From the NCBI RefSeq assembly GCF_020532825.1, contig NZ_MQTS01000069.1, positions 1 through 37,123 of the forward strand: a stretch of 37,123 nucleotides of DNA. The letters are read 5' to 3'. Position numbers and translations under genes: made by a program. Positions 4,398 through 31,307 of this stretch are shown one piece after another (positions within the stretch are counted from its first letter, which is position 1; each line of letters starts with the position of its first letter). The notes under the pieces were generated by a model. The model saw only the letters and a list, made by a program, of their open reading frames with translations. It searched no databases and was not told the origin of the DNA. The stretch comes from Arthrobacter sp. SO3. Its GTDB lineage: Bacteria > Actinomycetota > Actinomycetes > Actinomycetales > Micrococcaceae.

Positions 4398-6560
4398 TCA
4401 CGGAGCCGGCGGTGCAGGCTTGGTCATGGACTCGGGCGGTGGAGCGAATGGCGCGGCCGGGTAGAGCCCGGCGACCTCGAGCATGTAGTTCGCCCACTGC
4501 GGGCCGGCGAGCATGTAGCCGTCAATGTTCTTGTAGAACTTGCCGTTGATGGTGACGTTCTGGCCCGGCCGTTTCTGGCCTTCCAGCGTGTCCCCGAAGA
4601 AGGACGCGGTAGCAAGGCCGCTGGTGTAGCCGACCACCCAGGTGGCGCCGTTGGTGTTGGAAGTGCCGGTCTTGGCTGCGGCCGGGACCTGATTCTGGAC
4701 CTTGGGTTCGATGTAGATTCCGGACCCCTTTTTCAGCACGTCCTGAAGCACAGAGTTCACGCCGCGGGCCACCTCGGGCTTGACCGCGCTGCGGCAGTCG
4801 CTGGTCTCGGCCGGAAGCTTCCGTCCTGACGCGTCGGTCACGTCCGCGATGGCGATTGGGGCACAATACTTGCCCTCAGCGGCGAACGTCGCAAATGCAT
4901 TGGCCAGGTGGAGCGGCGCCACACCAATGGCGCCCAGCAGGTTGCCCAGCTGGTGCATGTTCACCGGGGCGTTGTCCACGCCGCTGTGAAGGCCCACGGC
5001 ATCCACCATTCTCTGGATGCCGCAGAAGTCCAGTTCTGCGGCCTCAGCGAAGGTCGCCGTGTTGATGGAGTTGTAGAGCCCGTAATTGACGGGCATCTTG
5101 CGGTAGTAGCCCTCGTCGTTGTTCTGGAGATCGTCCGTGGCGCCGAGGGACTTTTGGGCCGTGTCGTAGGCTCCCAGGACCTTTCCACAGCTGGACTTCC
5201 ATGGGAAGTCCAGGGGATAAGTCCGCCGGCCGGCGTCCACCTCGGCGACCATGGACTTGCCTTCGTTGAGCCATTCCGCGAAGGTGAACGGCTTCATCGT
5301 GGACCCCGGCTGGAAGCCGCCGGCGCCGTTCAGATCGTTGCCACTGGCGTCCTTGGCGTCCACATTGAAGTTCAGCTGGGTGTCGAACTTCCCGGGTTCG
5401 GGAAGAAACACGGTGTTTTGCGCCATCGCCAGGATCTTCCCCGTGCCCGGCCCGATAGAGACCAGCGAGGCGCCCCACTTGTCCGGGTTGGCCCCGGCGG
5501 TGGCGTCGACCTGCGCCTGCGCGGCCGCCTGCAGCCGGCTGTCCAGCGTGGTGGTGATGGTCAGGCCCCCGCGGTACAGCTTTTTCTCGCGATCAGGGGC
5601 GTCGACGCCGTACGCCGGGTTGTTGAGGATCAGATGCGAAACGTAGTCGCAAAAGTACGGTGCCATGTCAGCCGCAGAGCACCCCTGCTTTGCGGGCGTG
5701 ATCTTCAGATCGACACCGCTGGCGACGGCGGCGTCATGATCGGCTTGGAGGATCTTCCCCTCGCTGAGCATTTTGTCCAGGACCTGGTCACGTCGCTTGA
5801 TGGAGTTTTCCGGATGGGCGGTGGGATCGTAAAAGCTGGGGCTGTTGACCAGACCGGCGAGCAGTGCGGCCTGCGGCAGGGTGAGGTCCTTTGCGGAGGT
5901 ACTGAAGAAATGCCGGGCTGCGGCCTCAATGCCATACGCGTCCCGGTTGAAGAACACGATATTGAGATAGCCCTCCAGGATCTGGTCCTTGGAGTACTTC
6001 TTTTCCAGCTCGAGGGCGAGCTTCATCTCCCGCACTTTGTCGCCGATGCTTTTCTGCCCGCTGAGGACCACCTGATCGCCCCTGTCCGCCGACACCAGGG
6101 ACTCATTGACCACGTTCGTTACGTACTGCTGGGTCAGCGTGGATGCGCCTTGTCTGCTGCCGCCGGTCAGGTTGGCGGTGAGCGCCCGGAGAATCCCCAG
6201 CGGGTCGACACCGGCGTGCTTGTAGAAACGGCTGTCCTCGATGGCGACAATCGCGTCCCTGATGTAGGGGGACATCTGGTCCAGCGGGATCTTCACGCGG
6301 TTCTCCGCGAAGAAGGTGGCGATCGGCTTCCCGTCCGCGCTCAGCACCTTGGTTGACTGCGACGGCGGATCAACCACCAGCTCAGCGGGGAGGTTGTTGA
6401 AGAAGATGATTGACCTGCTGACGGCAACGCCGGCGGCAGCGACCCCAGGGGCCGCGAGGCTGGCGACCAGAACGCCGCAGATCACGCTCAGTGTTAAGAA
6501 TCCGAGGACCCTCCAAAGGGCCGCGGCCAGACGAGATCCGACTCGTTTCTTCGGCGCCAT
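4398..6560 (-). CDS. class A penicillin-binding protein (copy 1)
   Basis: A bifunctional peptidoglycan synthase of 720 residues. After a cytoplasmic basic start, one membrane helix covers about residues 18-47. The GT51 glycosyltransferase domain has the catalytic glutamate in AIEDSRFYKH (E108) and RQGASTLTQQ (136-145). The transpeptidase domain has S420-T-M-K, S498-I-N and K630-T-G-T. There is no PASTA domain; the tail is Pro-rich. The ATG at 6560 is preferred over one 18 codons earlier because it gives the same N-terminus as the paralogue at 29142-31307. The two proteins are very similar throughout and share a 110-bp identical DNA tract. It converges with the dehydrogenase gene, 32 bases away. 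Confidence 0.93.
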   Translation of the reverse strand: MAPKKRVGSRLAAALWRVLGFLTLSVICGVLVASLAAPGVAAAGVAVSRSIIFFNNLPAELVVDPPSQSTKVLSADGKPIATFFAENRVKIPLDQMSPYIRDAIVAIEDSRFYKHAGVDPLGILRALTANLTGGSRQGASTLTQQYVTNVVNESLVSADRGDQVVLSGQKSIGDKVREMKLALELEKKYSKDQILEGYLNIVFFNRDAYGIEAAARHFFSTSAKDLTLPQAALLAGLVNSPSFYDPTAHPENSIKRRDQVLDKMLSEGKILQADHDAAVASGVDLKITPAKQGCSAADMAPYFCDYVSHLILNNPAYGVDAPDREKKLYRGGLTITTTLDSRLQAAAQAQVDATAGANPDKWGASLVSIGPGTGKILAMAQNTVFLPEPGKFDTQLNFNVDAKDASGNDLNGAGGFQPGSTMKPFTFAEWLNEGKSMVAEVDAGRRTYPLDFPWKSSCGKVLGAYDTAQKSLGATDDLQNNDEGYYRKMPVNYGLYNSINTATFAEAAELDFCGIQRMVDAVGLHSGVDNAPVNMHQLGNLLGAIGVAPLHLANAFATFAAEGKYCAPIAIADVTDASGRKLPAETSDCRSAVKPEVARGVNSVLQDVLKKGSGIYIEPKVQNQVPAAAKTGTSNTNGATWVVGYTSGLATASFFGDTLEGQKRPGQNVTINGKFYKNIDGYMLAGPQWANYMLEVAGLYPAAPFAPPPESMTKPAPPAP
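5470..5579. repeat. 110-bp tract identical to 30226-30335
   Basis: Within the PBP copy 1 gene, bases 5470-5579 are identical, base for base by eye, to 30226-30335 in PBP copy 2, in the same orientation. Flanking sequence is also highly similar but carries scattered differences. This looks like recent gene conversion or unequal retention after duplication, and it forms a direct repeat 24.8 kb apart. Confidence 0.8.
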
Positions 6561-6685
6561 GTTTAACCAGCTATCGCGCTCAAAATGTGTGATCAGAATA
6601 CGCCGGAACGGCACCGAAGGGCCAGCGGGTGAAGGGCTCGGGAGGGCACCCTCGGCGCGATGACAAGGCCCCGCCGGACAGTGCC

Positions 6686-13340: not shown

Positions 13341-13384
13341 CCATCGCCCTATGGAATGAGTGCTTCTTCGTCGGAAAGTCTGGC

Positions 13385-13540
13385 TGGCCAGGTCTGCCTG
13401 GCTGACTTCCCTGATCGCTGCACGACCTTGATGCCGCGGGTCGGGCCCCGCTGCAGTGGAAAACGGTCCTGCACCGCCAGAACCCTTCCTTGTCGCTGAG
13501 GATTTCCAGGCTCATGTCCCCGCAGCCGGGGAACCGACAA
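13385..13540 (-). pseudogene. C-terminal scrap of a succinate dehydrogenase iron-sulfur subunit (sdhB)
   Basis: Reverse-strand sequence from about 13540 reads SLEILSDKEGFWRCRTVFHC, matching LQILNDKEGVWRCRTVFNC of the intact sdhB at 23168-23950. A shift just after SGA then gives TRGIKVVQ, matching PRGIKVTQ, and a second shift at the glutamine would give AIREVSQA, matching AIAEVKQA. Only about 45 residues around the [3Fe-4S] site survive and the reading frame is broken twice. DNA similarity to the intact copy is clear but not recent-identical, so it is an old or independently acquired copy. Confidence 0.75.
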
Positions 13541-16081: not shown

Positions 16082-16537
16082 TCAGGTATGTCCGGCGCGC
16101 AGATGGCTCAGAACCAGGCCGACGGGGATACTGACGGCCAATACAAGGTAGAAGGCCCGAAGGAGTGCGACCGCGATTGGCCGTTGGGCGTGGCGTGTTC
16201 CGGCGCCGGCGAGCACCAGCCCGGCCACCAGCAGGAGGCCGCCGGCATCGGTGATGACTGGGATGGCAGCGAGTGCGCCGGCGACGACCAGGGCGTTGCC
16301 GATGTTCCAGGACCCGAACAGCATCCACTGCTGTGCCGGTCGGAGCGGTGCGGCGCCGAGGGTCAGGCGCTGGTTGCTGATGGCACATTGGGCCACGCCA
16401 CAGACGAGCACCAGATAGGCGGCAAGCCAGCTGCCGCGGTCGAAGTGCAAGGGGCCGGCGACGGCGGCGACAAGGCCGCCGAGAACGATGAAGCCAACGC
16501 CGGCTGCGTAACCGACTCGTTCGGGGACCCCGTTCAT
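16082..16537 (-). CDS. small integral membrane protein, coupled to the DUF2249 gene
   Basis: A 151-residue protein with about five hydrophobic helices (VGYAAGVGFIVLGGLVAAVA; WLAAYLVLVCGVAQCAI; WNIGNALVVAGALAAIPVI; GLLLVAGLVLAGAG; ALLRAFYLVLAVSIPVGLVL). Its ATG at 16537 overlaps the TGA of the upstream cupin/hemerythrin/DUF2249 gene as ATGA, so translation is very likely coupled. Family not recognised; the strict coupling suggests it works with the DUF2249 protein, perhaps as a membrane partner in NO or oxygen handling. That role is inferred from context. Confidence 0.72.
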   Translation of the reverse strand: MNGVPERVGYAAGVGFIVLGGLVAAVAGPLHFDRGSWLAAYLVLVCGVAQCAISNQRLTLGAAPLRPAQQWMLFGSWNIGNALVVAGALAAIPVITDAGGLLLVAGLVLAGAGTRHAQRPIAVALLRAFYLVLAVSIPVGLVLSHLRAGHT

Positions 16538-17730
16538 GTCAGCGACGCGGCCGAGAATTGGAGCCGCCAAGCTTCCGGACCACGGTCGAGGTAGCTGACA
16601 GTAAAGCGTCCCGGGGTCCGCTCCTCTACCTGGGCCAGGAGCGGGAGGGGATCGTGGGGTGCGACCAGAATCAGTCCCTCGCCGGCGCCGACCCCGTCGA
16701 GGGCACCAAAGACGGTGGCGTGCCGGATCGCGTGCGGGACGTTCCGGACATCCAGTTCCACGTATGCGGGTTCGTCGACGATGCCGCATTCGCAATGTGT
16801 GGCGCCCTTGGAAGCCGGGGCGCCGTCGTCGACCATTAGCGATTCGATGTCCGACCAGAGCGAACCGAGGGACAGTCCGCCTGTCCGGGCCAGGACCGGG
16901 AGGGCGTGGTCCGCGAAGAACCTTAGGTGCTGGCCGAGGTGCATACGCAGCTCCACGGCCACGCTGGCAACTTCAACATGACCGCGGAGGTTGGCCAGGC
17001 GCCAGATGATACCGGTGACGAGTTCGCGTTCTGTGCGGAGCCGGTGGGCGAGGTCGGCATCGATCCGGCTTAGGGCCGGATCGATTACCTCCTGTTCTGC
17101 CTCGAGCAGTGCGCCCAGCGTGTCGCGGGACCAGCCAAGCAGCGTTGCAAATGCCTGCCGCATCCGCTCCTCGTCGCCGGCAGCTGCCGCGTCGAGGAGT
17201 TGCGTTGTGTAAGTGGCAGCGCTCCCCGTGAGCTCTGCGTGCCTTGCGATTACGCGTTCGACGGCATCCGAATCCGGTCGGGTGGAGGCCAGCACCACGT
17301 TCGACCGTCGTGCCGGCTCCGGCGTCGAGGCGGCAGCGGGAGCGTCGACTGTCGCGGGGCTGTCCAGCCTGTGCGCGCGGGTGGTGGCTGGTGCACGTTC
17401 GCAGATGGTGAGCATCAGGTGCGCGGGCGTTAACGCTTCGACCGAATGCGGCTGGCCCGCATCGAGGTGGATGATTGCGCCGGTGGGCAGATCAACCCGT
17501 TCGCCGCCGACGTCGAGGGCTGCATGGCCGCTCAGCACCTGCAGAAGGATCGGCGCGGTGGCGGTGTGCTCTCTCATCACCGCGCCCTCGTCGATGGTGA
17601 GGCGGACAACGCCGGCTCCCGCCCCTTTGAAGACTCGAGTGGATCTTACCGCCCCGGCGTCGACCGGAAGTGCAGCCAGCAGAGCTTCGGCGTTAGCGGC
17701 GATCAGAGTGTGGTTTCCCGCAGTCATCAT
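16534..17730 (-). CDS. cupin / hemerythrin-like / DUF2249 fusion protein
   Basis: A 398-residue three-part cytosolic protein. Residues about 35-110 form a cupin (MREHTATAPILLQVLSGHAA, LDAGQPHSVEAL). Residues about 150-290 are all-helical with spaced His/Glu (ARHAELTGS, LEAEQEVIDP, GHVEVASVAVELRMHLGQHL) and look like a hemerythrin-type HHE bundle, although the ligand set cannot be proven. A CECG motif precedes the C-terminal DUF2249 domain (ELDVRNVPHAIRHATVFGAL to the end). DUF2249 proteins often occur with NO reductases, hemerythrins and Fe-S assembly. GGAGG precedes two adjacent ATG codons. It is divergent from a truncated haemoglobin and coupled to a membrane protein, suggesting a diatomic-gas or nitrosative-stress role. 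Confidence 0.8.
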   Translation of the reverse strand: MMTAGNHTLIAANAEALLAALPVDAGAVRSTRVFKGAGAGVVRLTIDEGAVMREHTATAPILLQVLSGHAALDVGGERVDLPTGAIIHLDAGQPHSVEALTPAHLMLTICERAPATTRAHRLDSPATVDAPAAASTPEPARRSNVVLASTRPDSDAVERVIARHAELTGSAATYTTQLLDAAAAGDEERMRQAFATLLGWSRDTLGALLEAEQEVIDPALSRIDADLAHRLRTERELVTGIIWRLANLRGHVEVASVAVELRMHLGQHLRFFADHALPVLARTGGLSLGSLWSDIESLMVDDGAPASKGATHCECGIVDEPAYVELDVRNVPHAIRHATVFGALDGVGAGEGLILVAPHDPLPLLAQVEERTPGRFTVSYLDRGPEAWRLQFSAASLT

Positions 17731-17798: not shown

Positions 17799-18245
17799 AT
17801 GAACGGAGACCTGAAGGACCGGTCCGATGTCGCCCTGCTGGTAGAAGAGTTCTACCGACGCGCCTTTGCCGACCCGCTGATCGGGCCTATTTTCACCCAT
17901 ATAGCCAAGATGGATCTCGTCCGTCATCTGCCGATCATGTGCGACTTCTGGGAGACCGTGCTGTTCAGCGCCGGCCTCTATCGGCGTAACGCCCTGCAGA
18001 TGCATCTGGTGCTTAACGCCCGTTTTCCGTTGCAGCAGGAACACTTCGAGCGGTGGCTCACCTTGTGGGCTGCGAACGTCGACGAGCACTTTGCGGGGGA
18101 GAAGGCCGACCTCGCCAAGATCCAGGCCACGCGCATTGCCGGGTCCATCCACCGGCGGCTTGAAGGCCGTTCCGGCAGCGATTTCGAGACCCTGAAGCCG
18201 CGCAGGGCCCGCGAGGAGGAATCGGCGGATGCCCGCGGGATCTGA
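17799..18245 (+). CDS. group III truncated haemoglobin
   Basis: A 148-residue 2-over-2 globin of the TrHb3 class. Features include DVALLVEEFYRRAFADPLIGPIF (A to B helices), a CDFWETVLFSAGLY block, the proximal haem ligand H69 in LQMHLVLNARF, and EHFERWLTLW with the conserved Trp. Group III globins bind O2, NO or CO and are linked to microaerobic or NO stress. The last 25 residues are charged and overlap the next gene. The HTH regulator ATG (18229) lies 17 bases inside this gene, so the two form an operon. Divergent from the cupin/HHE/DUF2249 gene. Confidence 0.9.
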   Translation: MNGDLKDRSDVALLVEEFYRRAFADPLIGPIFTHIAKMDLVRHLPIMCDFWETVLFSAGLYRRNALQMHLVLNARFPLQQEHFERWLTLWAANVDEHFAGEKADLAKIQATRIAGSIHRRLEGRSGSDFETLKPRRAREEESADARGI

Positions 18246-18918
18246 AGCGGCGCCACACGCCGGACGTTCCGCGCCGGGCAGCGCCCTGAGGGACGAGAAC
18301 TACCATTCCGCGTTGGCATCGCACACGCGGCGGCGTGTCCTCGACGCCGTGGCCGGTTCGTCCGGTCCCCTGGAGGCGCAGGCCATCGCCAGCGTGCTGG
18401 AACTGCACGTTTCCACGGTCCGGTTCCACCTGGACCTACTTGAGGAGGCGCGGCTCGTCCAGCGCGAATCCGGCGGGGACAGGCGCCGCGGCCGCCCGCG
18501 TGTGCTGTATACGGCCGTCCTCGAGGCCGAACGCGATGAGGGTTCACGGGAGCAGCTGATCGAGGTGCTCGCCGGAGCCCTCGCACGCAGCGACGCGGAC
18601 CAGGGACGGAGCAGTGCCATTAACGCCGGCCGTGACTGGGCACGCGGGCTCCTAGCCGAACGCTCCGACTCCGTCGATCGACGGAGCGTGCTCCTTGAGG
18701 TCCTTGACGGGCTCGGCTTCGACCCATCGCCGGACGGCGATGCCATCGAGTTGCGGTGGTGCCCGTTCCGCCATGCCGCGAGGCGGCACCCGCAGGTTGT
18801 CTGCTCGGTCCACCTCGGACTCGTGCAACAGTTACTCGGCGGCGACGGCGACGCGCCGCCGGACGTGCATCTGCTCCCTTTTGTTCAACCAAGTCTATGC
18901 GTCATCACCCTGCCCTGA
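18229..18918 (+). CDS. HTH transcriptional regulator with SufR-like cysteine pattern
   Basis: A 229-residue regulator. Residues about 25-95 form a winged helix-turn-helix (HTRRRVLDAV, EAQAIASVLELHVSTVRFHL, wing with RRRGRPRVLY) as in DeoR/ArsR-like and SufR-type proteins. The C-terminal effector domain holds C178 (RWCPFRHAA), C192 (VVCSVHLGL) and C224 (PSLCVI). Spacing of about 14 and 32 residues resembles the cysteines that hold the [4Fe-4S] cluster in SufR, so cluster-based sensing of NO, O2 or iron is plausible but unproven. It overlaps the haemoglobin gene by 17 bases and probably regulates the divergent module. Confidence 0.82.
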   Translation: MPAGSEAAPHAGRSAPGSALRDENYHSALASHTRRRVLDAVAGSSGPLEAQAIASVLELHVSTVRFHLDLLEEARLVQRESGGDRRRGRPRVLYTAVLEAERDEGSREQLIEVLAGALARSDADQGRSSAINAGRDWARGLLAERSDSVDRRSVLLEVLDGLGFDPSPDGDAIELRWCPFRHAARRHPQVVCSVHLGLVQQLLGGDGDAPPDVHLLPFVQPSLCVITLP

Positions 18919-19380
18919 ACCATTACACCGGTACCGAACCGATTGCTGTTTAGCTCCGGACTTAGATCGATCGCGGTGACGGGGCCGTCCTGTCCTTCGA
19001 CTTTTAGCGGACGACTACACCCGAGGCAAGGCGCTGTGCAGCAAAGAAAGAGCGGGTGACAACTCGGAGGTCTCGGCTACCAGGTCGCCCTCGAACACCT
19101 GCAGGGGACCGGATAGGGGGCCGATACCCCGCGCCGGTGAACCGATTGGCCCGGCCGCACCCCGGCCCATATCACCTTCATTTTCGCGTCAGGCCTGGAA
19201 CGCGCTGGCTGGGGCGCGGGCGCAGGCCTGCTGAGCGGTCCGGTGCATCCTCATGGTGATGTGGCTCCTGCAGGGATCGGGAGAGCATAATGTCACCGAG
19301 GACGAAGACCCACAGGGTTTTTCGCCGCTTCGGGCGTCACTTTTCCACGGAAGGTATCAGTGCCGTGCGGCAAGTCAGCG
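18919..19380. other. 462-base stretch with no recognisable gene
   Basis: I looked in all frames and saw only short low-complexity reading frames without family motifs. There is no tRNA-like fold. A promoter for the DUF488 gene must lie here if that gene is transcribed on its own, but no convincing -35/-10 pair stood out. Confidence 0.5.
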
Positions 19381-19393
19381 AGGAGGCTGGGGA

Positions 19394-19756
19394 ATGTCGA
19401 CTACAACGGATGTTCAGGTGCGCCGGGTCTATGATGCGACCAGGGACGACGACGGCATGCGGGTTCTGGTGGACCACATCTGGCCCCGCGGGATGACCAA
19501 GGCCAAGGCGGCACTGGACGAGTGGTGCAAAGACGTCTCCCCGTCAACGGAGCTGCGCAAATGGTACGGCCACGACCCTGCCAAGTTCGACGAGTTTGCC
19601 AAGCGCTACAAGGCCGAGCTTAAAGACCCCGCCCGGGCGCAGGCGCTTGAGCATCTGCGCGAACTCGCCAAGGGCCAACGGCTGACGTTGCTGACGGCAA
19701 CCAAAGCCGCCGACATCAGTGAGGCCCATGTCCTGGCCGACCTGATCGGACGGTAG
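19394..19756 (+). CDS. DUF488 family protein
   Basis: A 120-residue DUF488 protein. Typical features are VQVRRVYD at the start, the block VLVDHIWPRGMTK, LDEWCKDVSPSTELRKWYGH (with conserved Asp/Trp/Lys) and the ending LTLLTATKAADISEAHVLADL. An AGGAGG ribosome site eight bases before the ATG at 19394 fixes the start. The family (YeaO-like) is small, cytosolic and of uncertain biochemical role. It stands alone between the haemoglobin operon and a broken universal stress protein gene. Confidence 0.88.
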   Translation: MSTTTDVQVRRVYDATRDDDGMRVLVDHIWPRGMTKAKAALDEWCKDVSPSTELRKWYGHDPAKFDEFAKRYKAELKDPARAQALEHLRELAKGQRLTLLTATKAADISEAHVLADLIGR

Positions 19757-20457: not shown

Positions 20458-22254
20458 CTAGATGGATTGGCGGTAGCCGAAGAATTCGTGGTCGTTGTTG
20501 TACCCGCCTTCGCCGCCGCCGATGTGGGAGAAGTCCTTGACGAATTCGATGCCTTTGATCCATTTGACGAGTTTGAAGCCGAGCTGGACCTCGTTGCGCA
20601 GACGCAGCGGTGCGCCGTGTCCGTAGGGCAGCGGCGCGTTGTTCATGTCGTAGGCGAGCATGGTGAGGTGGTAGCTCATCTGTTCGATCGGCTGCGCGTC
20701 ATAGTAGATGCCGCCGTCGGATCCTTCGGCGAAGGAGTAGAAGATCACCCACTTCGCCTCCGGGTCCGGCTGCACCAGGTCGATGATGGTTTGCATGGAG
20801 ACGCCGCCCCATTTGGCGACGCCTGACCAGCCCTGGATGCAGAAGTGCTGGGTGATCTGCTCATGGTGGGCCAGTCCGTGAAGCTGGGCCAGGTCGAGTT
20901 CCACCGGGTTCTTTACGAGGCCGGAGACCCGGAGGCGGTAGTCGGCGAAGCCTGTGGCCAGAAGCGTTTTGTATTCGGTGGATTCGGGGTACTTGCCGTT
21001 GTGCCACATATACGGGGAAATGTCTTTTTCGGTGTACCGTCCGGGTTTGGAATCGAGGTGCTCGAACAGCCGTTGCGCCGGTCCGATGAGCGCAAACCCG
21101 ATCCGCTGGACCATCCGCGGATGCCGGTAGGTGAGCGGGGTGACGCCCACCCAGATCACGATCATTATGGCCAGGGATGCGGCGAAGACCCAGAACCCGT
21201 ACCAGTCCCCGGAGTTGCGGCCCGCATACATGTAGTTGAAGTTCCGCAGTGCCTCTGTCGCGACGACGAGGGAGACGTGCATCACGATGAACAGCACGAA
21301 CCAGACCAGGACCAGGAAATGCAGCGACCGGGCGACCTGGATGCTGAAGACCCTGCTGATCCGCCTGAATTTTGTGGACAGCGCCGGGGACATGCCCAGC
21401 CCGGTGATGAACGCCAGCGGCGCGGCGATAAAGACCGTGATGAAGTAGGCGAGGACCTGGAGACTGTTGTAGGCCACCCAACTGTCGTCGGTTGGCCAGT
21501 TCAGGGAGGCGTACTGGATGGACATCGAGAGGGCATTGGGGATGACGTCCCAATTGGTGGGCACCAGGCGGAGCCACTGCCCCGTGGTGAAGATGAGAAG
21601 GTAAAAGATCAGGCCATTGAGCAGCCAGAGCGTGTCCATACCCAGGTGCCACCAGCGTGCCAGTCCGATTGAGTGCCGCCGGCCCGGCAGGCCCACGCCG
21701 TCGGGGAGGGTGATGGAGTCCTGCTTGGCCGTGTACAGCGGGTCTGCCGGTACCGGCGTCTGCATCCGGAACCATTCCTTGCCCGGGGTTGAGTGCCGGG
21801 TCCAGTACAGCCTCGGATGATCGGCAAGGATGGCTAGCCCTGCCCGGATGATGGGGACCAGGAGCACCATGTTGAAGAAATGCTGCCACCCGATCCAGGC
21901 AGGGAACCCCGCCCGGGCTTCGGCTCCGGGCGGAACAACCCGGCCCGGATATTCCCTGATGAACTCCGCCACGGCGGGGACACCACGAAGTCCCTTGGCG
22001 AGGGCCACGGCAGTGATCAGCAGCACGAAGCCGATCGGCAGCAACCACAGCAGGTTAAACCATTTGCTGTTCCCTATGCGCACCCGCGGCGCCACCCCGT
22101 ATTGCGCAGGAGCGGACCCGGCCCAGGAGTCATCGACGACGGCGTTCGCTTCCGTTGAGAGCTCCTCCCGGAAGCTGGCCGGCGTCCGCGGGCCCGTGGC
22201 GGAGACAGCGGACCGGGAACCGTCCGGGTTGTCCAGATTATAGTCACGTGCCAC
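20458..22254 (-). CDS. membrane cytochrome b fused to a sulfite-oxidase-like molybdopterin oxidoreductase
   Basis: A 598-residue fusion. After a soluble N-terminus of about 60 residues, residues roughly 65-380 hold five or so membrane helices with His residues suited to b-type haem (GWQHFFNMVLLV, RWWHLGMDTLWLL, ARSLHFLVLVWF, FIVMHVSLV), like the cytochrome b of hydrogenases or formate dehydrogenases. Residues about 395-570 form the oxidoreductase molybdopterin domain (ADYRLRVSGLVKNPVELDL), with C472 in HFCIQGWSGVAKWGGV as the probable Mo ligand, and HGAPLRLRNEVQLGFKLVKW. The start is GTG with GAAGG upstream. The domain lies at the membrane and could reduce or oxidise small S/N oxides. Divergent from sdhC; substrate unknown. 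Confidence 0.88.
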   Translation of the reverse strand: MARDYNLDNPDGSRSAVSATGPRTPASFREELSTEANAVVDDSWAGSAPAQYGVAPRVRIGNSKWFNLLWLLPIGFVLLITAVALAKGLRGVPAVAEFIREYPGRVVPPGAEARAGFPAWIGWQHFFNMVLLVPIIRAGLAILADHPRLYWTRHSTPGKEWFRMQTPVPADPLYTAKQDSITLPDGVGLPGRRHSIGLARWWHLGMDTLWLLNGLIFYLLIFTTGQWLRLVPTNWDVIPNALSMSIQYASLNWPTDDSWVAYNSLQVLAYFITVFIAAPLAFITGLGMSPALSTKFRRISRVFSIQVARSLHFLVLVWFVLFIVMHVSLVVATEALRNFNYMYAGRNSGDWYGFWVFAASLAIMIVIWVGVTPLTYRHPRMVQRIGFALIGPAQRLFEHLDSKPGRYTEKDISPYMWHNGKYPESTEYKTLLATGFADYRLRVSGLVKNPVELDLAQLHGLAHHEQITQHFCIQGWSGVAKWGGVSMQTIIDLVQPDPEAKWVIFYSFAEGSDGGIYYDAQPIEQMSYHLTMLAYDMNNAPLPYGHGAPLRLRNEVQLGFKLVKWIKGIEFVKDFSHIGGGEGGYNNDHEFFGYRQSI

Positions 22255-22635: not shown

Positions 22636-22663
22636 TTGACCTTTCCCCAAGCGGTCGTAGACT
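22636..22663 (+). promoter_or_regulatory. probable sdhC promoter
   Basis: TTGACC at 22636-22641, a 16-base spacer and TAGACT at 22658-22663 form the clearest sigma-70-like promoter in the window. It would leave a leader of about 60 bases before the sdhC GTG at 22732. Confidence 0.6.
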
Positions 22664-22731
22664 CACAGGTGAGTCCGCCGTCCGACTATGTACGTCCTTG
22701 GGTCGCCGGCGCACGGAGCGAGGAGGGGCCG

Positions 22732-23112
22732 GTGTCAAAGACTGCATCCTGGACTCTTTACCGCGGGCAACAGGGACAGTGGGCGTGGGTCGCCCACCGG
22801 ATTACCGGCGTTGCTATTTTCTTCTTCCTCCTCGTGCATGTCCTGGATACTTCCATGGTCCGGGTATCGCCCGAGGCCTATAACGCCGTCATAGGCACCT
22901 ACAAGAACCCGGTCATGGGCATAGGGGAGGCCGGCCTGGTCGCGGCCGTGGTCTTCCATGCGTTCGGCGGTGTGCGGATAATCCTCATCGATTTCTGGAA
23001 GAAGGGCCCCAAGTATCATGTCCAAATGCTTTGGGTTGCCCTCGGACTGTGGGCAGTGGTGATGATCCCCTTCCTTTTCATCCACCTTTCCCATGTTTTC
23101 GGCGGCCACTAA
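22732..23112 (+). CDS. sdhC: succinate dehydrogenase cytochrome b subunit
   Basis: A 126-residue membrane anchor with three helices. The pattern TLYRGQQGQWAWVAHRITGV, FFFLLVHVLDTSMVRVSPEA and VVFHAFGGVRIILIDFWKKG is typical of actinobacterial SdhC, including His residues that bind haem b and the Ser/Arg of the quinone site. The GTG start at 22732 has AGGAGGGG just upstream. Normally sdhD and sdhA follow; here sdhB begins only 55 bases after the stop, so the anchor partner and flavoprotein are missing from this locus. It may be an orphan copy whose product depends on subunits encoded elsewhere. Confidence 0.92.
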   Translation: MSKTASWTLYRGQQGQWAWVAHRITGVAIFFFLLVHVLDTSMVRVSPEAYNAVIGTYKNPVMGIGEAGLVAAVVFHAFGGVRIILIDFWKKGPKYHVQMLWVALGLWAVVMIPFLFIHLSHVFGGH

Positions 23113-23167
23113 TAATGTCCGCCATCATGGGAGACCGGAAGAGCCCCAACAGGGAGCGCAGGAGTCC

Positions 23168-23950
23168 ATGAGCAGCCCCCAGGCCACCGAACCCGCCTCG
23201 AAAATAGATCTGCCGCACTCTGTTGGAGGGGGAGAGATCCCCACCTTCGAAGTCACCCTGCGGATCCGCCGCTACAACCCGGAAGTCTCCGACGAGGCCC
23301 GCTGGGAAGACTATTCGCTGACCATGCACGGCACGGACCGGGTCCTGGATGCGCTGCACAAGATCAAATGGGAAATTGACGGCTCGCTGTCCTTCCGGCG
23401 TTCCTGCGCCCACGGGGTGTGCGGTTCCGATGCCATGCGGATCAACGGCCGCAACCGCCTGGCCTGCAAGGTTTTGCTCAAGGACCTCAACCTGGACAAA
23501 CCGGTGACCATTGAGGCCATCAAGGGCCTGCCGGTGGAGAAGGACCTGATTGTGGACATGGAACCGTTCTTCCAGTCCTACCGTGAGATCATGCCGTACT
23601 TCATCGGTGCCGGCCACGAGCCGACGAAGGAGCGCCTGCAGTCCCCCGAAGAGCGTGAACGTTTCGATGACACCACCAAGTGCATTCTGTGTGCCGCGTG
23701 TACGGGCTCGTGCCCGGTCTTCTGGACCGACGGACAATACTTCGGTCCCGCGGCGATCGTGAACGCCCACCGCTTCATCTTCGACTCCCGGGACGACGCC
23801 GGCGACTTGCGCCTTCAGATCCTTAACGACAAGGAAGGTGTCTGGCGGTGCCGCACCGTCTTTAATTGCACGGAGGCTTGCCCGCGTGGCATAAAGGTCA
23901 CGCAGGCCATCGCCGAGGTCAAACAAGCCATCCTCTCCCGGCGGATATGA
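23168..23950 (+). CDS. sdhB: succinate dehydrogenase iron-sulfur subunit
   Basis: A 260-residue three-cluster subunit that carries electrons from the flavoprotein to quinone. The [2Fe-2S] cysteines lie in RRSCAHGVCGSDAM and LACK, the [4Fe-4S] set in CILCAACTGSCP, and the [3Fe-4S] set in CRTVFNCTEACPRGI. GCAGGAG precedes the ATG. All ligands are present, so the protein looks functional. There is no sdhA within the window. A broken second copy of the [3Fe-4S] region lies at 13385-13540. An 18-codon frame (23115-23171) starting just after sdhC ends in TGA overlapping this ATG and may be a deletion scar. Confidence 0.93.
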   Translation: MSSPQATEPASKIDLPHSVGGGEIPTFEVTLRIRRYNPEVSDEARWEDYSLTMHGTDRVLDALHKIKWEIDGSLSFRRSCAHGVCGSDAMRINGRNRLACKVLLKDLNLDKPVTIEAIKGLPVEKDLIVDMEPFFQSYREIMPYFIGAGHEPTKERLQSPEERERFDDTTKCILCAACTGSCPVFWTDGQYFGPAAIVNAHRFIFDSRDDAGDLRLQILNDKEGVWRCRTVFNCTEACPRGIKVTQAIAEVKQAILSRRI

Positions 23951-23996: not shown

Positions 23997-24202
23997 CGCG
24001 TCAGCCGGCCAGGAGCTGACGCAGGACTACTGGATCGGCGGCTACGTGTACCCCGGCCCACTCGCTCTTTTGGGGCCGGGCAGTGAGCCTGGTCCGCACC
24101 CCGGTTCTCGCCGGTCACCGTGAGGTAGCGCCCACTGCCGTCCTGGCAGGCACCGTCAGCAGACATATGCATAAGGCACGATCACAGGAAAGGGGTTCCA
24201 CC

Positions 24203-24925
24203 ATGTCACTGCCAAGAACCAGGCTGGTCAAGAAGGAAGCAGCAGCCGAAGAAACAATGCTGTTTCAGTTTGAAAAGCCCGCGGGCTTTACGTACAAGGC
24301 CGGCCAATTCGCGGACTACACCCTGATCGACCCAGCGGAGACCGATGCGGAGGGAAACACCCGCGGATTCTCCATGTCCAGCGCCCCCTACGAACCCAAC
24401 CTGATGTGCACGACCCGCATGCGCGACACGGCATTCAAGCGTGTTCTCAAGGACATGCCGATTGGGACCGAGGTGGAGCTGGACGCCCCCTACGGATCCT
24501 TTACCCTGCACAACAAGGTCGCCAGGCCCGCGGTCTTTCTGACCGGCGGAATCGGAATCACACCCGTGCGCAGCATCACCCTGCAATCGGTCCATGACAA
24601 GACGGGGCACAGGATTATTGTGTTCTACTCCAACAAACGTCCGGAGGACGCGGCCTTCCTGGACGAACTGGGCCGCGTCGCCGGGGCACAGGCCAACGTC
24701 ACCGTCGTGGCCACCATGACCGAGCCCGAAAATTCGCGGCAGGCCTGGGCCGGGGAAACCGGGTTCATCGACAAAGACATGATAGCCAGGTACGTCGAGG
24801 ACCTGACCGTGCCGATCTACTATCTCTGCGGTCCTGCCGGCATGGTCACCGCCATGCGTAGTCTCCTCAACGGGGCCGGCGTCGACGACGATGACATCCG
24901 CACGGAGGAGTTCACCGGCTACTAA
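24203..24925 (+). CDS. FAD-dependent ferredoxin--NAD(P) reductase-like protein
   Basis: A 240-residue flavoprotein reductase. The FAD domain has the R-x-Y/F-S-x-x-S signature as RGFSMSSAPYE (about residues 54-64). The NAD(P) domain has LTGGIGITPVRS (about 113-124), VFYSNKRPEDAAF and YYLCGPAGMV near the C-terminus. It lacks an iron-sulfur domain, so it must pass electrons to a separate partner. AGGAAAGGGG upstream fixes the ATG at 24203. It follows sdhB by 252 bases, beyond a terminator. The nearby cytochrome b/molybdopterin oxidoreductase is a possible partner, but this is only context. A truncated copy lies at 15631-15960. Confidence 0.88.
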   Translation: MSLPRTRLVKKEAAAEETMLFQFEKPAGFTYKAGQFADYTLIDPAETDAEGNTRGFSMSSAPYEPNLMCTTRMRDTAFKRVLKDMPIGTEVELDAPYGSFTLHNKVARPAVFLTGGIGITPVRSITLQSVHDKTGHRIIVFYSNKRPEDAAFLDELGRVAGAQANVTVVATMTEPENSRQAWAGETGFIDKDMIARYVEDLTVPIYYLCGPAGMVTAMRSLLNGAGVDDDDIRTEEFTGY

Positions 24926-29141: not shown

Positions 29142-31307
29142 TCAGTCCTCTTCATCATTGGATCGGTCGGGCTTCTTGGTCATGGACTCGGGCGGCGGCG
29201 GAAACGCCTCGGCGGGGTAGAGCCCGGCGACCTCGAGCATGTAGTTCGCCCACTGCGGGCCGGCGAGCATGTAGCCGTCGATGCTGTTGTAGAACTTGCC
29301 GTTGACGGTGATGTTCTGTCCGGGGCGTTTTTGGCCGTCCAGGGCGTCGCCGAAGAAGGAGGCGGTGGCCAGGCCGCTGGTGTAGCCGACCACCCAGGTG
29401 GCGCCGTTGGTGTTGGAGGTTCCGGTTTTGGCCGCCACCGGGTACTGGCTTTGGACCTTGGGTTTGATGTAGACGCCGGACCCCTTCTTCAGCACGTCCT
29501 GAAGCACGGAGGTGACGCCGCGGGCAACGTTGGGCTTGATGGCATCACGGCAGGACTTGGTTTCGGCCGGAAGCTGCTGTCCCGCCGCATCGGTCACTTC
29601 CACAAGGGCGACGGGCTCGCAGTACTTGCCGTCATTGGCGAACGTGGCAAATGCATTAGCCAAAACGAGCGGCGCCACACCAATCGCTCCCAGCAGGTTG
29701 CCCAGTTGATGCATGTTCACCGGGGCGTTGTCCAGGCCGCTGTGGATTCCTGTCTTGTCCACCATTTTCTGGATGCCGCAGAAATCCAGTTGCGCGGCCT
29801 CCGCGAAAGTGGCGGTGTTGATGGAGTTATAAACCCCGTAGTCGACGCGCATGCGGCGGTAGTACCCGGCGTCGTTGTTCTGCAGATCATCGGCCGCTCC
29901 GAGGGCCCGCTGCTTCGTGTCGTAGGCCCCGAGGACTTTGCCGCAGCTGGATTTCCAGCGGAAACCAAGCGGATAGGACCGGCGGGAGGCATCCACCTGG
30001 TCGGCCAGGGACTTGCCCTCCTGGAGCCACTCCGCCAGGGTGAACGGTTTCATGGTTGACCCGGGCTGGAACCCGCCGGCGCCGTTCAGGTCATTGCCCT
30101 TGGCGTCCTTGGAATCCACGTTGAAGTTCAGTTGGGTGTCGAACTTCCCGGGTTCGGGGAGGAACACGGTGTTTTGCGCCATCGCCAGAATTTTCCCCGT
30201 GCCCGGCCCGATGGAGACCAGCGACGCGCCCCACTTGTCCGGGTTGGCCCCGGCGGTGGCGTCGACCTGCGCCTGCGCGGCCGCCTGCAGCCGGCTGTCC
30301 AGCGTGGTGGTGATGGTCAGGCCCCCGCGGTACAGTTTCTTCACACGCGCGGGAAGGTCGACGCCGTAGGCCGGGTTGTTGAGGATCAGGTGCGAAACGT
30401 AGTCGCAAAAGTACGGTGCCATGTCAGCGTCGGCGCACCCCTGCCTCCCCGGGGTGATGTTCAGGTCCACCCCGGTGGCGGCGGCGGCGTCGTGGTCCGC
30501 CTGGGAGATCCGGCCGATGCTGAGCATGGCATCCAGGACGTGATTGCGTCGCTGGATGGCGTTGTCGGGATAGATGGCGGGGTTGTAGAAGCTGGGGCTT
30601 TTCACGAGGCCGGCGAGCAGGGCCGCCTGCGGCAGGGTCAGGCTCTTGGCTGTGGTGCTGAAGAAGTAGCGCGACGCGGCTTCAATGCCGTAGGCGTCCC
30701 GGCTGAAGAAGACGATGTTGAGGTAGCCCTCCAGGATCTGGTCCTTGGAGTACTTCTTTTCCAGTTCGATCGCGAGCCGCATTTCGCGCACCTTGTCGCC
30801 GATGCTCTTCTGCCCGTTGAGGACGATCTGATCGCCCTTGTCCGCGGACACCAGGGACTCGTTGAGAACGTTGGTGACGTACTGCTGGGTGAGGGTTGAG
30901 GCGCCCTGCCTGCTTCCACCGGTCAGGTTGGACGCCAGGGCCCGAAGAATCCCCTGCGGGTCGACGCCGGCGTGCTCGTAAAATCGGCGGTCCTCGACGG
31001 CGACAATCGCGTCCTTGATGTAGGGAGACATCTGGTCCAGCCCGACCTTCACCCGGTTCTCCGCGTAGAAAGTGGCGATCGTCTTCCCGTCCGCGGTCAG
31101 GACCTTCGTGGATTGCGACGGCGAATCGACCGTCAGTTCCGAGGGGAGGTTGTTGAAGTACGTGGCCGATGCCTTAAGGGCAACGCCGGCCCCGGCCAGG
31201 GCGGGGACCACGAGGCTGGCCGCGAGGACACCGCAGACCGCGCTCACGGTGAAGTAGCCGACGACCCTCGGGCAGGCCGCGGAAAGCTTCGAACCGGGTC
31301 GTGACAT
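29142..31307 (-). CDS. class A penicillin-binding protein (copy 2)
   Basis: A 721-residue bifunctional peptidoglycan synthase, paralogous to the one at 4398-6560. A single N-terminal membrane helix precedes the GT51 domain (AVEDRRFYEHAGVDPQGI, SRQGASTLTQQ) and a transpeptidase domain with S417-T-M-K, S495-I-N and K627-T-G-T, followed by a charged tail KKPDRSNDEED. The two copies agree nearly throughout, differing mostly at the N-terminal helix, around GRQGC and in the tail. DNA from 30226 to 30335 is identical to 5470-5579. It is divergent from the gamma-glutamyltransferase gene. Both copies have intact active sites. Confidence 0.93.
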   Translation of the reverse strand: MSRPGSKLSAACPRVVGYFTVSAVCGVLAASLVVPALAGAGVALKASATYFNNLPSELTVDSPSQSTKVLTADGKTIATFYAENRVKVGLDQMSPYIKDAIVAVEDRRFYEHAGVDPQGILRALASNLTGGSRQGASTLTQQYVTNVLNESLVSADKGDQIVLNGQKSIGDKVREMRLAIELEKKYSKDQILEGYLNIVFFSRDAYGIEAASRYFFSTTAKSLTLPQAALLAGLVKSPSFYNPAIYPDNAIQRRNHVLDAMLSIGRISQADHDAAAATGVDLNITPGRQGCADADMAPYFCDYVSHLILNNPAYGVDLPARVKKLYRGGLTITTTLDSRLQAAAQAQVDATAGANPDKWGASLVSIGPGTGKILAMAQNTVFLPEPGKFDTQLNFNVDSKDAKGNDLNGAGGFQPGSTMKPFTLAEWLQEGKSLADQVDASRRSYPLGFRWKSSCGKVLGAYDTKQRALGAADDLQNNDAGYYRRMRVDYGVYNSINTATFAEAAQLDFCGIQKMVDKTGIHSGLDNAPVNMHQLGNLLGAIGVAPLVLANAFATFANDGKYCEPVALVEVTDAAGQQLPAETKSCRDAIKPNVARGVTSVLQDVLKKGSGVYIKPKVQSQYPVAAKTGTSNTNGATWVVGYTSGLATASFFGDALDGQKRPGQNITVNGKFYNSIDGYMLAGPQWANYMLEVAGLYPAEAFPPPPESMTKKPDRSNDEED
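30226..30335. repeat. 110-bp tract identical to 5470-5579
   Basis: Partner of the identical tract in PBP copy 1; same orientation. It encodes the region between the glycosyltransferase and transpeptidase domains (LYRGGLTITTTLDSRL and following residues), which does not by itself require nucleotide identity. Confidence 0.8.

Follow-up and report, generated by a model that had tools for sequence, protein, structure and literature searches.

An sdhC-sdhB pair without sdhD and sdhA in Arthrobacter sp. SO3 and extra copies of the iron-sulfur subunit SdhB in the Micrococcaceae

In Arthrobacter sp. SO3, a second sdhC gene is directly followed by a second sdhB gene, and sdhD and sdhA are absent from this site. 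The pair was found in a stretch of 37,123 nucleotides (contig NZ_MQTS01000069.1, here called the window). It may represent a maintained partial copy of an sdh operon, whose products would join SdhA and SdhD of the main operon in a hybrid or repaired complex II when nitric oxide is present or oxygen is scarce; we estimate the probability of this reading at slightly below one half. It is supported by the two intact genes, a complete operon elsewhere in the genome, purifying selection, the occurrence in three species, a locus with a second aconitase gene and the recurrence, in other genera, of extra SdhB copies that lack sdhA. The genes and the signals of the pair are located as follows.

22636..22663, + strand: sigma-70-like site, TTGACC and TAGACT spaced by 16 bases, 9 of 12 positions matching
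22732..23112, + strand: orphan sdhC, 126 amino acids, GTG start, TAA stop at 23110-23112
23113..23167, + strand: gap of 55 bases between sdhC and sdhB
23168..23950, + strand: orphan sdhB, 260 amino acids, ATG start at 23168, stop ending at 23950

The same pair, with sdhB directly after sdhC, is present in two related genomes, G046 and G141. Both proteins of the window score above the curated cut-offs of their families. Orphan SdhC is assigned to the cytochrome b556 subunits by Pfam Sdh_cyt, NCBIfam TIGR02970 and the alignment to chain C of 6LUM. Orphan SdhB is assigned to the SdhB proteins by its 2Fe-2S and 4Fe-4S type domains (Pfam Fer2_3 and Fer4), the subfamily model NF004616 of NCBIfam and its cysteines: it has all ten ligand-type cysteines shared without exception by 42 other SdhB rows. 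The three orphan SdhBs retain 138 of the 141 residues invariant in these 42 rows. With queries for SdhA and SdhD, no significant match was obtained in the window or in the loci of G046 and G141 (best E 0.049), and with sdhD and sdhA absent, the window locus does not represent a complete complex II operon (sdhCDAB). Thus, sequence, family models and queries confirm the original prediction, which described an sdhC gene and an sdhB gene 55 bases apart without sdhD and sdhA in the window, and the family models and the ten cysteines bear out its statement that the motifs of both genes are intact. It also assigned the pair its own promoter and ribosome sites. Shine-Dalgarno-like motifs can be read at 22720-22726 (GAGGAGG, sdhC) and 23160-23164 (AGGAG, sdhB); the promoter stands as a consensus match only. 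The site at 22636-22663 is one of two sigma-70-like sites found in the scan, with 0.6 expected. Both of its hexamers are the same in the three species.

Within the genus, an SdhC match at E 1e-62 or better to the orphan protein occurs in 3 of 206 genomes, namely those carrying the pair. The orphan SdhC is 98% (G046) and 96% (G141) identical to that of the window, the orphan SdhB 97% in both. A complete sdhCDAB operon lies on contig C243 of the same genome, and its products are divergent from the pair (SdhC about 71%, SdhB 84% identical). A plasmid search with the region of the pair gave no record covering 80%; the best matches comprised only the neighbouring oxidoreductase. The unannotated StoSoilB13 plasmid was considered as a carrier of the orphan pair and rejected, as it has sdhC (in two frames), sdhD, sdhA and sdhB.

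The pair appears not to be derived from the operon of its own genus. Orphan SdhC shares 77-79% of its residues with its closest counterparts in other genera, compared with about 71% with the operon of its own genus. A tree of 42 SdhC rows unites the three orphans (100/99) and separates them from the operon clade of the genus (97/99). In a tree of 54 SdhB rows, their group also includes the extra copies of G200, G144 and G476 (96/85) and again lies outside the genus's own operons (99/92); the bootstrap of this tree is unsettled and two rows, the G476 extra copy and G154, are long. SdhB identity alone was discarded as a guide to origin, because it reaches 83-86% to operons of the own genus and up to 86% to others, and it is the trees that discriminate. 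In the gap between the two genes, the ATG at 23115-23117 reads M-S-A, and the SdhD of the genus's operons starts with MSAT. This MSA-like start hints, without proving it, at a deletion reaching from early sdhD almost to the start of sdhB, of which the ATG would be a possible scar. Of the two options in the original prediction, an orphan copy created by deletion, whose subunits would exchange with the main complex, fits best and is retained in part. It agrees with the complete operon elsewhere, with purifying selection and with the sdhA tails found before four other extra sdhB genes, but the deletion is not a recent one from the own operon, because SdhC is nearer to other genera, both trees exclude the pair from the genus's operons and three species share it.

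Across the family, an SdhB match at E 1e-80 was found in 391 of 395 genomes, and ten genomes, including that of the window, have two matches. Together with G046 and G141, this gives 12 extra copies. Two of the genomes are uncertain: G299 has 7% contamination, and G476 (91% complete, 4%) carries an additional, partial third SdhB. Intact sdhA is present in none of the 12 extra-copy loci; the main loci examined have it. Surveys of the order (149 genomes, 93 matched) and the class (148 genomes, 59 matched) revealed a second SdhB only in the genome of the window; at their threshold of E 1e-80 distant copies would escape, and some family genomes were among the draws. On the SdhB tree, the label "extra copy" needs five changes, all forced by well-supported branches. 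The placements are the group of six mentioned above, G395 among the operons of its own genus, G423, G213 with G349, and G255 with G299. We read them as five separate origins, although such changes can be gains or losses. Four copies are preceded by the end of an SdhA, comprising the last 48 (G395), 23 (G213), 18 (G349) and 34 (G423) residues, which points to partial copying or a deletion within sdhA as their source. No sdhA tail was found in L221, L225, L236, L237, L245 or the window. The extra SdhBs differ at 0 to 7 of the 141 columns invariant in 42 other rows and retain all ten cysteines. Positions 180 and 181, located between the cluster cysteines, are altered in 7 of 12 extra copies belonging to three origins. 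Residue 180 of 6LUM is a threonine, so this position varies in the wider family.

Both genes of the pair are under purifying selection. Pairwise dN/dS values by the Nei-Gojobori method (own script) range from 0.043 to 0.081 for orphan SdhC and from 0.095 to 0.118 for orphan SdhB, three pairs each, and no stop, frameshift or relaxed selection was detected in the pair in these comparisons. The original prediction named relaxed selection on both genes as the result that would speak against it; the observed range of 0.04-0.12 points to maintained selection instead. For the main operon, SdhC gave 0-0.045 (three pairs) and SdhB 0.033, the latter from a single pair, since the main sdhB of G141 reads in two frames and was excluded. 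Orphan SdhB is somewhat less constrained than the main copy, with a dN/dS about three times as high as this one-pair value. In G141, the main sdhB (L049) and the cluster aconitase (L047) each read in two frames, possibly due to sequencing errors.

Nitric oxide attacks Fe-S clusters and haems. If the pair is a spare set, sdhD and sdhA would have been lost by deletion from a partial operon copy, and the pair would be induced by nitric oxide or hypoxia. Under these conditions the Fe-S clusters and the haem of complex II would be damaged, and the spare subunits could exchange into the enzyme, leading to a hybrid or repaired complex. The nearly full conservation of the SdhB surfaces and the lack of an SdhA-like partner speak for binding of the orphan proteins to the housekeeping SdhA (and SdhD), with which they would most likely assemble.

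The neighbours of the other extra sdhB genes are the following.

G395: oxidoreductase, aconitase, FdxA, CRP-type regulator, sdhB, cytochrome oxidase I
G213: flavohaemoglobin, winged-helix regulator, FdxA, sdhB, Rieske protein
G349: DevS-like kinase, response regulator, universal stress protein, Hsp20, sdhB, flavohaemoglobin
G423: universal stress protein and Rieske protein only
G255 and G299 (L225 and L245): nitrate reductase genes and SelO, with FdxA in G255
G476: hemerythrin
G200: no marker; YdeP-type molybdopterin oxidoreductase adjoining
G144: no marker; GCS2 protein and cupredoxin nearby

The extra sdhB of G395 branches with the operon of its own genus and sits in the same type of cluster as the pair. 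Using seven nitric-oxide/nitrate/oxygen markers and three Fe-S markers (E 1e-8), which were picked after the loci had been seen, we detected markers in 10 of 12 extra-copy loci (nitric oxide, nitrate or oxygen in 8, Fe-S in 6), a contrast inflated by this choice. The same markers, chosen post hoc, were absent from all 12 main loci and from all 40 evenly placed loci; because they were taken from the extra-copy loci, the difference of 10/12 to 0/52 is overstated. Outside the marker sets, a universal stress protein occurs in three of the 40 evenly placed loci and a weak match to the oxidoreductase in one. Shared homologues, with sdhB excluded, were also counted independently of any marker choice. 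At 30% identity, a shared homologue was present in 8 of the 47 pairs of extra-copy loci that differ in origin and genus, compared with 39 of 619 among the other pairs and 24 of 374 among the mixed ones; at 40% identity the numbers are 6, 16 and 13. Genus-matched resampling gave P 0.033 (30%) and 0.0012 (40%) by pairs and P 0.067 (30%) and 0.025 (40%) by origins, with the L239 locus undercounted because its oxidoreductase was missed by the ORF caller. The association with stress-related neighbours is moderate, not overwhelming.

Regulatory sites were sought in 14 upstream stretches. None scored above 95% of the background for the DosR site, an FNR site was not found, and two CRP-like scores at P 0.043 correspond to the chance expectation among 14 stretches. 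A DevS/DosT-like sensor kinase lies near the extra sdhB in one of 12 loci (G349). Against a role in stress stand the missing DosR and FNR sites, the loss of the aconitase from the genome of the window (G000) and the unmarked loci of G200 and G144. These two loci would also fit an alternative isoform or an extra dose of SdhC and SdhB that has no connection with nitric oxide or oxygen. It would assemble with SdhA and SdhD of the main operon and could serve, for instance, another quinone or growth phase. Selection and intact motifs agree with such an isoform equally well. However, neighbours recur between extra copies of different origin more often than in other loci, and we regard this explanation as rather unlikely.

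Two other relatives have the same aconitase-oxidoreductase junction. In Paenarthrobacter sp. DKR-5 a frameshifted sdhB end of about 350 bases (93% identical) is left, and in A. terricola a scrap of 64 bases (77%, E about 1e-7). The pair is thus eroded in the one and nearly gone in the other, which indicates that it is dispensable. The window itself contains a third, decayed piece of sdhB (13379-13523, - strand; 28 matched residues, 67-75% identical), located just downstream of a cytochrome oxidase subunit I gene and 9 kb from the pair. These sdhB fragments and the disappearance of the neighbouring aconitase from the genome of the window would be expected if the pair were a functionless remnant, caught in three species before its loss. 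Against such a remnant speak dN/dS values of 0.04-0.12 in three species and genes free of stops and frameshifts in all three comparisons, and we judge it to be unlikely.

The window also encodes cytochrome oxidase subunit I, and around the pair the following genes were identified.

16534..17730, - strand: cupin and DUF2249 protein
17799..18245, + strand: group III truncated haemoglobin-like protein (2ig3, E 2.6e-7), without Pfam match
18229..18918, + strand: winged-helix regulator, 37% identical to the one beside the G213 extra sdhB
19253..19756, + strand: DUF488 protein, retained beside the oxidoreductase in three genomes
20458..22254, - strand: membrane molybdopterin oxidoreductase with sulfite-oxidase-type domain, divergent from the pair and adjoining it in 3 of 3 genomes
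24001..24027, - strand: second aconitase gene, reduced to its final 27 bases, the rest being lost from the genome of the window

In G046 and G141 the second aconitase gene is convergent with sdhB. The genome of the window has one aconitase, 64% identical to this second (cluster) aconitase. Among 48 loci found with the oxidoreductase, an aconitase lies within 1 kb in seven. The two genes adjoin in a conserved gene set in Brevibacterium aurantiacum, Arthrobacter sp. H5 and H20, Georgenia subflava and a Citricoccus MAG (L113, L114, L115, L132, L154); the locus of Georgenia subflava also has a cytochrome oxidase gene. Past the rearrangement point, an FNR-type flavin reductase is encoded (24083-24925, + strand), with a G141 homologue of 82% identity. 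An NnrS-like label, guessed for the protein at 16082-16795, was dropped, as Pfam and NCBIfam give no family. Two similar long reading frames (4398-6614 and 29142-31307, both - strand) resemble penicillin-binding-protein-type transglycosylases by eye.

An electron-transfer module of two subunits for another dehydrogenase was offered as the second option of the original prediction. Candidate partners are the molybdopterin oxidoreductase, which adjoins the pair in all three genomes and has a homologue with a b561-like match below the Pfam cut-off, and the FNR-type reductase at 24203-24925. However, the oxidoreductase is found without sdhC-sdhB elsewhere (for example in G133 and in loci of the oxidoreductase survey). 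In G141, some 9 kb separate the homologue of the reductase from sdhB, and the G046 locus yielded no copy of it. Moreover, SdhB retains nearly all residues invariant in its family, and an SdhA-like flavoprotein is absent from the three loci. The option gained no positive support and is quite improbable. A loss of sdhD and sdhA by assembly, conceivable for contig C215 of a 248-contig assembly, is practically out of the question, because G046 and G141, each a single-contig genome, carry the same junction and all three assemblies would need a shared error.

Mycobacterial-type succinate dehydrogenase 2 (6LUM) is the best PDB match and nearest solved relative of both subunits (SdhB E 3.3e-108, SdhC E 4.1e-46); unlike this complete complex, the window locus lacks sdhA and sdhD. 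Extra whole sdhCDAB operons are likewise second sets of succinate dehydrogenase genes, as on a plasmid of Tsukamurella tyrosinosolvens, but that plasmid is annotated with all four subunits. For Pseudomonas pseudoalcaligenes grown on cyanide, isoenzymes of aconitase, fumarase and malate-quinone oxidoreductase are named in the title of a study (Igeno 2011, cited in PMC12294151). The second aconitase and the terminal-oxidase gene near the pair resemble such stress sets of the tricarboxylic acid cycle, but those isoenzymes are whole enzymes and here single subunits of complex II are concerned. Mycobacteria possess DosR-type regulons for nitric oxide, carbon monoxide and hypoxia (PMC10034137). The G349 extra sdhB, alone among the 12 copies in having a DevS-like kinase nearby, next to a response regulator, a universal stress protein and Hsp20, may recall such regulons; in contrast to them, a DosR site is absent upstream of every extra copy tested. 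In a literature search for extra sdhB copies or paralogues in nitrosative stress, the pattern was not described, as far as titles and the openings of abstracts tell.

The subunits of complex II are normally encoded together and assembled as a unit. Tentatively, and with more doubt than belief, it may be proposed that Micrococcaceae have repeatedly and independently kept a free-standing Fe-S subunit, here together with SdhC, through partial copying that truncates sdhA, as a stress-induced spare that takes the place of the damaged Fe-S subunit under nitric oxide or hypoxia and reuses the housekeeping flavoprotein, the parallel changes at positions 180 and 181 being a form of tuning to that state. 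If this is true, the repeated retention of the Fe-S subunit alone, often near nitric-oxide, nitrate or Fe-S genes, would suggest that bacteria replace individual vulnerable subunits within a respiratory complex.
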